Of a stretch of 64,000 bases of DNA, positions 29,008-54,234 are shown in pieces. Numbering within the stretch: position 1 is the stretch's first letter; the number at the start of each line of letters is the position of its first letter. The stretch comes from Cryoendolithus antarcticus. Its lineage: Eukaryota > Ascomycota > Dothideomycetes > Cladosporiales > Cladosporiaceae. The DNA lies in assembly GCA_002077065.1 (NCBI GenBank), contig NAJO01000003.1:1364001-1428000 (forward strand), written 5' to 3'. The position numbers were made by a program, and so were the translations under genes. The notes under the pieces were generated by a model that saw only the letters and a program-made list of their open reading frames with translations, had not been told where the DNA came from and did no database searches.

Positions 29008-30930
29008 TCACTTCTTCTTCCCCTTCTTCTTCGCGGGCGCTGGCGCCTTCCCCTTCACCACCTGACCCCCAGGTGTCCCGGGCCGCGAACTCTCCTTACT
29101 ATCATCCCCTCCAACAGCGCCCTGGGCAAGCATATCCCGCCTCCCCTTGCCCTTCTTTCCCTTAGGCGGTCGATACGTACTTCGGTCCTTCAATGGTAGC
29201 CAGCGCTCCGGATCAGGCGTCTTAGCTGGATCGTAGTCCTTCGGTAGCTTGCCGGGCCGGGGCTTTTTGTGCGGCTTAGGCGCTGCTGGAGTGGATGTCG
29301 GAGCTGGGCGTTTTGTGGATTGGGCTGTGGGGCAAGGGAGGGCGGCGATTCCGGCGGATTCGAGGGAGGAGGCGTCGATTGAGGCGAGGAGACGGGGGAG
29401 GGGTGTAAGGGATGATTTGTCGGCATCTGTTGAGCCGGATGCGAGGAGGCCGGCGGTAGCGTAGCGGTCTGTAGAATCGGCTTTGTGGAGGTCGGCGAAA
29501 ATTGCTTTGGCTAGCTTCTGGTGCTCGGGTTCTTCGGAATCGAGAAGGGAGCTGCCGACTGCTCTGAGGAGGTCTGCCACACCTGCCGGCCATTTGCTGC
29601 CTTTACTTCGCCAGTGCTCTGCTGCTCTGGCGAATGCTGCTCGTGCTGGATCTCGTCGGTTTTGCGAATTGTAGAGCGCTGTTGTGACGCCCACAAGTCC
29701 AGGCGAGTAGCGCACGTCGTCTGCGCTGTGGCCGCTTTGCTCCAGGCGGTCGGTGAATTTCTCCACCAGGTTGATGGCCGAAGGCGCATTGCCGGTCAGT
29801 ATATACAGCTGTACGATCGTCAGTAGCAATCCAACGTCATGCGGTCGCTTCTCCAGTAATGGCAGAATATGCTTCAGCGCCTCTTTTCCACTCTGACTCT
29901 TCGCATGAGCTGCGGCGTTGATCACGGCCAAGCTGTTGATCTTGCGATCTAATGTAGGCGCATCCTGCTTCCCAAGCACCGCCTGTGTCGAAGTCTTCAA
30001 CCCTCCAAATTTCATCATGCCCAGATCCAACGCAAATTGATTCTCGTTCAGCACGATCTTCTGATATCCGAATGGCTTGTCGGTACCATCCTCCTCGATG
30101 TCCTTACCCAGCATCCTCTCCTCCAAGAACGCATTACCCTCCCCCTTCCTCCCAGCCAACATGCCATTCATCCTCGCAACATGTACCGACGTTTCATCCT
30201 CCAGCGCCTCAGCCTTCACCTCCTTCGCCAGCGCCTCAGCCTCCGCCTTCTTCCCCAGCCGAAGCAGCACATACACCCTCTGCGCCCTGATTGGCCCGAT
30301 CTCAGCTTCCCTCTCCGCCTCGCTCAGATCCCCTGCAAGCGCCTCAGCGCGCTTCAACAGCACTTCAGCCTGTCCCAGCTCATTGCGCGCAATGCATCCG
30401 CACGCGGCGTTGTAAGCCGTCTCGAAAGCCTCCAGATCCTCACGCTCGACTTTTCGCTTCTTCGATGGTGCGCCGGTGAATTGTAGCTGCACTTCCGTCG
30501 CCCCAACATTAACTCGCAGATCTGCCTCCGCGTCTTCCTCCTGCGCTTCGCTGAGCTTTGAGTATAGTTCTCGTGCTCTCACGAAATCTTCAGCCCGATA
30601 CCGTGACTGTGCTTCGACATGTCTCAATCCTCTGCCCCCGTCTGAGCCCTTTGCGGCGATCTCCGCTGCTTCTGCTGGTCGTCCGGCTTTGTACAGCGTG
30701 TAGGCATACTCTAGCCGTGCCTCTTCTTTTAGCTTTGGGTAGGTGTCGACGAAGGCAACTGCTTCGGCGAAGCGATCGAGTTTTAGCAGGGCGACAAGGG
30801 CTGTGCGTTGGGCGTTGACATCCGAGGTCCCGCCTTTTGATTGTGTGATGCTCTTCTGAGCGGCGGAGAGGATCTCGGCGTGGTCCTCTATCGTGCTTTT
30901 CGAGAGGAGGGAGGTGAGTGTGGAGGCCAT
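29008..30930 (-). CDS. SRP72: Signal recognition particle subunit SRP72
   Basis: Single exon, 640 aa. SRP72 forms a heterodimer with SRP68 on the SRP RNA and is needed for ER targeting. The N-terminal two thirds is a TPR-type superhelix (e.g. RTALVALLKLDRFAEAVAFV, RLEYAYTLYKAGRPAEAAEI, FETAYNAACGCIARNELGQA, GLLLTIVQLYILTGNAPSAI). The C-terminal RNA-binding region has the family signature KDYDPAKTPDPERWLPLKDR followed by TYRPPKGKKGKGRR, then a Lys-rich end (KKKGKKK). Length and order match fungal SRP72. Cytosolic, with possible nucleolar assembly. Confidence 0.95.
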   Translation of the reverse strand: MASTLTSLLSKSTIEDHAEILSAAQKSITQSKGGTSDVNAQRTALVALLKLDRFAEAVAFVDTYPKLKEEARLEYAYTLYKAGRPAEAAEIAAKGSDGGRGLRHVEAQSRYRAEDFVRARELYSKLSEAQEEDAEADLRVNVGATEVQLQFTGAPSKKRKVEREDLEAFETAYNAACGCIARNELGQAEVLLKRAEALAGDLSEAEREAEIGPIRAQRVYVLLRLGKKAEAEALAKEVKAEALEDETSVHVARMNGMLAGRKGEGNAFLEERMLGKDIEEDGTDKPFGYQKIVLNENQFALDLGMMKFGGLKTSTQAVLGKQDAPTLDRKINSLAVINAAAHAKSQSGKEALKHILPLLEKRPHDVGLLLTIVQLYILTGNAPSAINLVEKFTDRLEQSGHSADDVRYSPGLVGVTTALYNSQNRRDPARAAFARAAEHWRSKGSKWPAGVADLLRAVGSSLLDSEEPEHQKLAKAIFADLHKADSTDRYATAGLLASGSTDADKSSLTPLPRLLASIDASSLESAGIAALPCPTAQSTKRPAPTSTPAAPKPHKKPRPGKLPKDYDPAKTPDPERWLPLKDRSTYRPPKGKKGKGRRDMLAQGAVGGDDSKESSRPGTPGGQVVKGKAPAPAKKKGKKK

Positions 30931-54017: not shown

Positions 54018-54029
54018 TTATATAATTTT
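54018..54029 (+). promoter_or_regulatory. TATA-like element upstream of tRNA-Lys
   Basis: TTATATAATTTT ends about 25 bp before the first tRNA base (54055). Upstream TATA elements at about -30 guide TFIIIB at many fungal tRNA genes. This placement argues that transcription begins before the 5' acceptor strand and so includes the insertion. Confidence 0.5.
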
Positions 54030-54054: not shown

Positions 54055-54182
54055 GCCCGGCTGTAAGTCCTCACGTTCTTCGCCCCGTGCAGTGAATAAT
54101 GCTAATTCTCTAATTAGAGCTCAATCGGTAGAGCGTAAGACTCTTAATCTTAAGGTCGCGGGTTCGACCCCCGCGTTGGGCT
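54055..54182 (+). tRNA. tRNA-Lys(CTT) interrupted by a 55-bp intron-like insert
   Basis: Removing 54063-54117 leaves a complete 73-nt cloverleaf. The acceptor strand GCCCGGC (54055-54061) pairs with GTTGGGC, then T8, A9, D stem GCTC/GAGC, anticodon stem TAAGA/TCTTA with loop CTCTTAA (anticodon CTT), a variable loop AGGTC, T stem GCGGG/CCCGC around TTCGACC, and discriminator T (54182). The insert lies between positions 8 and 9, not at the 37/38 site cut by tRNA endonuclease. It starts GTAAGT and ends TTAG. Box B (GGTTCGACCCC) is intact, while the first base of box A is separated. T runs at 54223-54226 and 54230-54234 can serve as pol III terminators. Confidence 0.9.
54063..54117 (+). other. 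GT-AG intron-like insertion inside the tRNA gene
   Basis: 55 bp with donor GTAAGT, a GCTAAT branch-site match (54101-54106) about 11 bp before the terminal TAG, and a length equal to the modal spliceosomal intron of this window. It contains no TTTT run that would stop RNA polymerase III. A 12-bp perfect palindrome, CTCTAATTAGAG (54108-54119), spans the 3' junction. Confidence 0.75.
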
Positions 54183-54222: not shown

Positions 54223-54234
54223 TTTTGTCTTTTT
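54223..54234 (+). terminator. Likely RNA polymerase III terminator
   Basis: TTTT at 54223-54226 and TTTTT at 54230-54234, about 40-50 bp after the tRNA discriminator base. They are the first T4-or-longer runs downstream. Confidence 0.6.

Follow-up and report, generated by a model that had tools for sequence, protein, structure and literature searches.

Working nuclear tRNA genes of Cryoendolithus antarcticus are probably interrupted by ordinary spliceosomal introns, and their precursors would be transcribed by RNA polymerase III and spliced by the spliceosome. The probability of this reading, which rests on the genomic sequence, is estimated at roughly 0.86. The spliceosomal nature of the inserts is strongly supported at the sequence level. 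Excision of the inserts restores complete tRNAs, and the mature sequences are conserved between related genes while the inserts vary.

The interrupted tRNA-Lys(CTT) gene

The window, that is the whole stretch of 64,000 nucleotides that was analysed, belongs to contig C73 of an assembly of 47 Mb in 149 contigs. A tRNA-Lys(CTT) gene occupies positions 54055..54182 on its plus strand. Exon 1 (54055..54062), read from the sequence, provides tRNA positions 1-8, which are the 5' acceptor strand and T8. It is followed by a GT-AG intron of 55 bp at 8/9 (54063..54117). Exon 2 (54118..54182) provides positions 9-73 according to ARAGORN and the sequence. ARAGORN was silent on the unspliced gene and recognised a full tRNA-Lys(CTT) with four paired stems once 54063-54117 was excised. 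The acceptor stem of the spliced tRNA includes two G-U pairs. The Rfam match in the window covers tRNA positions 9-63 only (54118-54174, 49.4 bits). The original prediction had described a Lys(CTT) gene split at 8/9, and its coordinates and anatomy hold. An SRP72 gene in one open frame was also seen in the window (29008-30930, minus strand); it matches Oleoguttula sp. CCFEE 5521 at 88% (partial), and further relatives are found in Saxophila tyrrhenica (55%) and Hortaea werneckii (51%). This similarity places the fungus in the Dothideomycetes, probably near Teratosphaeriaceae.

The insert has GTAAGT as its donor, ends in ATTAG with TAG as the acceptor, and carries a branch-like GCTAAT at 54101-54106. 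All three signals had been predicted and were confirmed, with a measured gap of 8 bp between GCTAAT and the final TAG. Its predicted likeness to protein-gene introns was borne out in length: the 12 mRNA introns predicted in the genome have a median of 55 bp, the same as this insert. The pattern GT...CTRAY...AG in window segments of five such lengths has a rate of 5.2e-5 even when tRNA restoration is not yet demanded. The flanking signals were also as predicted. A TATA-like element, TATATAATTTT, lies at 54019..54029 (+) and starts 36 bp upstream of the mature 5' end. The motif GGTTCGACCCC at 54161..54171 (+), which we take to be box B, is intact. The insert contains no TTTT; the first one 3' of the gene is at 54223..54226 (+), followed by TTTTT at 54230, and is the likely polymerase III terminator.

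Four Lys(CTT) genes were found in the genome, namely the window gene and those on C94, C97 and C79. The C94 gene, which matches the window locus by its downstream side, is uninterrupted at 8/9 and has a 14-nt intron at 37/38. The genes on C97 and C79 have inserts at both 8/9 and 68/69, the second again of the GT-AG kind, in addition to a 37/38 intron. A single Lys(CTT) gene uninterrupted at 8/9 was thus found in the incomplete inventory. Because this gene exists, the window gene alone may be dispensable. The window gene is the only one of the four without a 37/38 intron, which was either lost or never present.

Interrupted tRNA and U6 genes in the genome

The genome search ruled out that the window gene is a single odd insertion. 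Among the 78 tRNA genes examined, 17 carry 19 GT-AG inserts at sites other than 37/38, and the genome total is at least 17. The 78 genes are a non-random sample from an incomplete inventory, made up of 53 Rfam matches (63 of 986 candidates scored) and 25 genes from motif searches, and include an odd locus (C90:144484) and a probable assembly duplicate on C108. An Ala(AGC) gene is found with identical flanks at C106:1260228, a contig end, and C108:45, a contig start, which is probably an assembly overlap. T-arm motif matches at C1:1382798, C62:427052, C83, C110 and C128:596552 were left out of the count. This incomplete inventory contains no gene recognised as Phe, His, Asn, Cys, Pro, elongator Met or Lys(TTT).

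Ten isoacceptors are affected: Lys(CTT) on C73, C97 and C79; Ile(AAT) and Arg(TCT), both on C63 and C95; Arg(TCG) on C60 and C98; Leu(AAG) on C91 and C66; Leu(TAG) on C60; Leu(CAG) on C24; Asp(GTC) on C58 and C119; Thr(TGT) on C118; and Ser(TGA) on C35. The inserts occupy nine positions, numbered by us from the stems, none of which is 37/38. Three inserts are at 8/9, two at 51/52, one each at 56/57 and 57/58, two at 59/60, one each at 62/63 and 63/64, two at 65/66 and six at 68/69. Several genes have an ordinary 37/38 intron besides a GT-AG insert. Seven isoacceptors also have uninterrupted copies: Lys(CTT), Ile(AAT), Asp(GTC), Leu(AAG), Leu(TAG), Leu(CAG) and Ser(TGA).

ARAGORN was applied to 16 of the insert genes and called five of them unspliced and all 16 spliced. 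The seventeenth, the Ser(TGA) gene on C35, was called only after splicing. This locus had been regarded as degenerate, a view that was dropped when re-reading revealed an insert, GTGCGT...GCTAAC...CAG, followed by TG. Its exon 2 was expected to read as in a relative on C74, TGTTCGCAGCG, and the 26 bases then fetched were exactly the expected continuation, although the expectation was not recorded beforehand. Automatic GT-AG excision produced a tRNA in 8/8 insert loci tested. The corresponding control is of limited weight: 34 of 35 other D-arm matches, one place being counted twice, gave no tRNA, and only 17 of the 34 had an excisable segment (37 variants). The exception, L078, was called by ARAGORN already in its unspliced form. 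The anticodons TAA, TTA and TCA printed for Leu genes are AAG, TAG and CAG when the CTAGC/GCTAG stem is used, and one Asp gene labelled as Phe has the anticodon GTC; these errors arise from ARAGORN's choice of stem. A separate group of tRNA-like loci, L078 (C139:1000921), L052 (C90:144484), L142 (C139:983823), L129 (C2:1143008) and L140 (C60:387858), is marked by long inserts in the anticodon arm, estimated by eye at roughly 60-110 nt, and by unusual anticodon loops, in some of which T33 is absent.

Only two Arg(TCT) genes were found, and both are interrupted. An uninterrupted Arg(TCT) gene was found neither by the anticodon-arm pattern nor by BLAST of the spliced sequence, within the incomplete inventory. 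A third pattern match, C96:34905, is no tRNA by ARAGORN. The locus L129 was considered as an intact Arg(TCT) gene and was taken as degenerate; its relative L140 reads GCT, with many exon differences. The tRNA-Arg(UCU) is the reader of AGA, a codon that occurs in all six long open reading frames of the window, which are mechanical calls, with 31 occurrences in total. Since both genes are interrupted, the decoding of AGA would depend on the removal of the inserts. It is likely, at somewhat lower confidence than the main reading, that the production of part of the tRNA set requires the spliceosome, and that this part includes the sole tRNA found to serve AGA codons.

Two U6 genes were found, at C1:1237201 and C62:576785, in a search in which Rfam scored 47 of 2070 candidates. 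Both carry a GT-AG insert after GGATGACA. The insert is 56 bp long on C1, the one on C62 was read only in part, and a box-B-like AGTTCGAACCCC is present inside. The C62 copy had been considered uninterrupted until reading revealed the same kind of insert as on C1. The Asp(GTC) inserts (L099 and L103) likewise have a box-B-like stretch, GTTCGAT, near their 5' end.

Exon conservation, splice signals and transcription signals

Six pairs of related genes that share the same insert were compared, with gap columns excluded. The mature tRNA is changed at 0/441 positions and the inserts at 56/368 (p=6e-21). The corresponding values are 6/68 for 37/38 introns, 130/336 for the 60 bp upstream and 76/334 for the 60 bp downstream. 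Within the inserts, the GT, CT.A and AG positions are changed in 0/49 cases against 56/319 elsewhere (p=4e-4). Four of the pairs, C97/C79 (Lys), C63/C95 (Ile and Arg) and C91/C66 (Leu), have matching flanks or lie on contigs that pair elsewhere; the other two are C60/C98 and the Asp genes on C58 and C119, the latter being paralogues, each with another partner. The pairs vary: in the Ile pair only 1/57 insert positions differ, as opposed to 21/57 and 20/54 in the flanks, and recent conversion is a possible cause. Two single comparisons concern base pairs. The window gene has exactly two mature differences from both C97 and C94, at positions 28 and 42, which are partners: A28 (54137, +) pairs with T42 (54151), where the other two genes have G-C. 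The Leu(TAG) gene on C60 and its uninterrupted relative on C2 differ at 3 and 70, again base-pair partners, which flank the insert on either side. The mature sequences, unchanged in the six pairs, are under purifying selection, as is expected of functional tRNAs. Unchanged exons beside varying inserts mean that these genes are alive and that exact removal of the inserts is required. The spliceosomal-looking inserts lie in the acceptor stem, in the T arm or at the 8/9 junction, and in the ten isoacceptors they appear, from their sequences, to be kept and removed.

The inserts are uniform in anatomy. All 19 are 51-57 bp long, start with GT and end with AG, the GT-AG register being chosen where several junction registers were possible. 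A CTRAY branch motif occurs in 18/19; it lies 14-17 nt from the 3' end in 17 of 18 inserts and is present in the nineteenth, and the exception, in Leu(TAG), reads CTTAC. GT-AG ends, a length of 50-60 bp as a rule and the CTRAY motif are shared with the genome's spliceosomal introns in protein genes. What differs is the host RNA, here a tRNA that polymerase III most likely transcribes. The 12 predicted mRNA introns used for comparison, from 19 candidates, are a small, computed set partly selected by such signals. They are 41-68 bp long, and CTRAY lies 15-17 nt before the end in only 7/12. TTTT is absent from 18/18 inserts examined (P=0.0095 by mononucleotide and 0.04 by dinucleotide shuffling). 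Its absence is not diagnostic of polymerase III because the 12 predicted mRNA introns also lack it.

The transcription signals were compared with those of tRNA genes without inserts. A TATA-like hexamer (>=5/6) precedes 39/43 such genes with a median start at -34. Within -50..-20 it is found in 37/43 of them, where shuffles average 14.5, and in 12/16 insert genes. The three Lys genes with 8/9 inserts have it at -36 from the mature end despite a shift of box A by 51-55 bp. A good hexamer at the usual place is lacking in Arg(TCT) on C95, both Asp genes (C58 and C119) and Thr on C118. According to PMC3978253, TATA boxes upstream of tRNA genes are important in some fungi. The first T4 downstream lies within 7-48 nt in 16/16 insert genes; the Arg(TCG) genes have a TTTT within the mature sequence. 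Box B is unsplit in 12/16 genes and split in four, Leu(TAG), Leu(CAG) and both Arg(TCG), where the split falls after GGTTC, GGTTCG or GGTTCGAG and leaves the core. A split box B should hamper TFIIIC.

Competing explanations, origin of the inserts and meaning

The original prediction had left three options: a tRNA matured by the spliceosome, a newly dead gene and a mobile introner. The first gained support from the 17 genes, the 19 inserts and their conservation in related genes, and the other two did not. Uninterrupted copies for seven isoacceptors, from Lys(CTT) to Ser(TGA), are what could be expected if introns or intron-like DNA had struck dead tRNA genes. The class as a whole contradicts this by its unchanged exons; the compensatory differences at 28:42 and 3:70 point in the same direction, as does the failure to find an uninterrupted Arg(TCT) gene in the incomplete inventory. 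For the window gene in particular, whose only two differences are the partners of one pair, recent death is unlikely. Dead genes are the least probable of the explanations considered. Mobile introner-like elements now spreading in the genome have only a slightly better chance. Corresponding loci do differ in the presence of an insert, at C73/C94 (Lys), at C58/C139 and C119/C84 (Asp) and probably at C60/C2 (Leu(TAG)). A 141-bp query containing the window insert, however, had its only further matches in two other Lys genes, where they were confined to the tRNA portions, and no other copy of this insert was detected in the genome at the sensitivity of BLAST. By eye, the inserts of different tRNAs are also unlike one another; a likeness is seen where related genes carry an insert at the same site. 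Such shared positions indicate common descent.

Two further explanations concern the machinery. Ectopic tRNA introns could be cut by the tRNA splicing endonuclease and joined by a ligase, as in Cyanidioschyzon merolae or nucleomorphs. PMC4090602 and PMC9602550 describe D- and T-arm introns in eukaryotic tRNAs, and these together with PMC3978253 give non-canonical sites, including the T arm, and several introns per gene as points of likeness; the coexistence of 37/38 introns with the inserts in several genes fits as well. The inserts differ from those systems in their conserved splice-site and branch motifs, unchanged in 49 positions and unexpected for that class. They also differ in the bulge-helix-bulge: a strict central helix of 4 bp between the cut sites was complete in only 1/18 inserts, with 3/4 pairs in three and at most two in 14. 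This test covered the strict motif only, and many introns of G. theta reportedly form no defined motif (PMC3978253). This explanation is very unlikely. The inserts resemble canonical eukaryotic tRNA introns in interrupting tRNA genes, partly the same ones, and differ from them in position and splice signals. Group I and group II introns are usually well over 200 nt long. No ribozyme core of either group is indicated for inserts of 51-57 bp, and at the gathering score Rfam reported only the tRNA in the window. Spliceosomal removal could also follow transcription by polymerase II. Spliceosomal splicing normally follows polymerase II, and box B is split in four genes. The TATA spacing in most genes and the T runs in all 16, which resemble those of genes without inserts, and the unsplit box B in 12/16 make polymerase II transcription unlikely, if less so than the endonuclease route.

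Polymerase III combined with the spliceosome is thus preferred. Polymerase III would initiate 3' of the TATA element, close to the mature 5' end, and would transcribe exon 1, the insert and exon 2 as far as the T run beyond them. The spliceosome would then remove the insert via GT, the CTRAY branch site and AG, which would restore the acceptor stem or the T arm. End processing would follow, together with cleavage by the tRNA endonuclease where a 37/38 intron is present. The combination has a precedent in fission yeast, where U6 is a polymerase III transcript from which an mRNA-type intron is spliced out, according to PMC10484740. Both U6 genes found here share this feature; the difference is that U6 is not a tRNA, and ten tRNA isoacceptors are affected in C. 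antarcticus. The mRNA-type introns of fungal nuclear rRNA, known here from a 1993 title cited in PMC11782384, are likewise spliceosomal-type introns in a structural RNA, in another RNA and with another polymerase.

Many tRNA genes are paired on different contigs, and the genome therefore looks duplicated; four flank comparisons gave about 81-85% identity. The homology between C73 and C94 begins at exon 2 (54118). Since the upstream region of C94 has no match, C94 may have lost its insert by rearrangement. The uninterrupted Asp(GTC) genes at C84:346533 (L101) and C139:88832 (L104) have about 340 bp in common at 90%, while their further flanks match L103 and L099. This suggests conversion, which possibly removed the insert from C84. 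The inserts would form a set of datable intron gains or losses, for which the duplicated genome would be useful.

A search of PMC, which covers few subscription papers and no preprints, found no earlier account of nuclear tRNA genes with spliceosomal introns. The type of intron is known; its host, a tRNA, and the second route of splicing that it implies for tRNAs appear to be new. In a 2026 review (PMC13149111), tRNA splicing is presented as a process that does not involve the spliceosome. The search for non-canonical introns in tRNAscan-SE 2.0 is described for archaeal tRNAs in PMC8450103, so that genes of this kind could go unnoticed in other fungi.

If the spliceosomal reading is true, nuclear tRNAs have a second route of splicing, and several pre-tRNAs pass through two unrelated splicing machines. 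The spliceosome would also be put to the test on very short structured polymerase III transcripts, with an exon 1 of 8 nt plus any leader in the window gene. Translation in this fungus would then depend directly on the spliceosome, whose own U6 carries a like intron.
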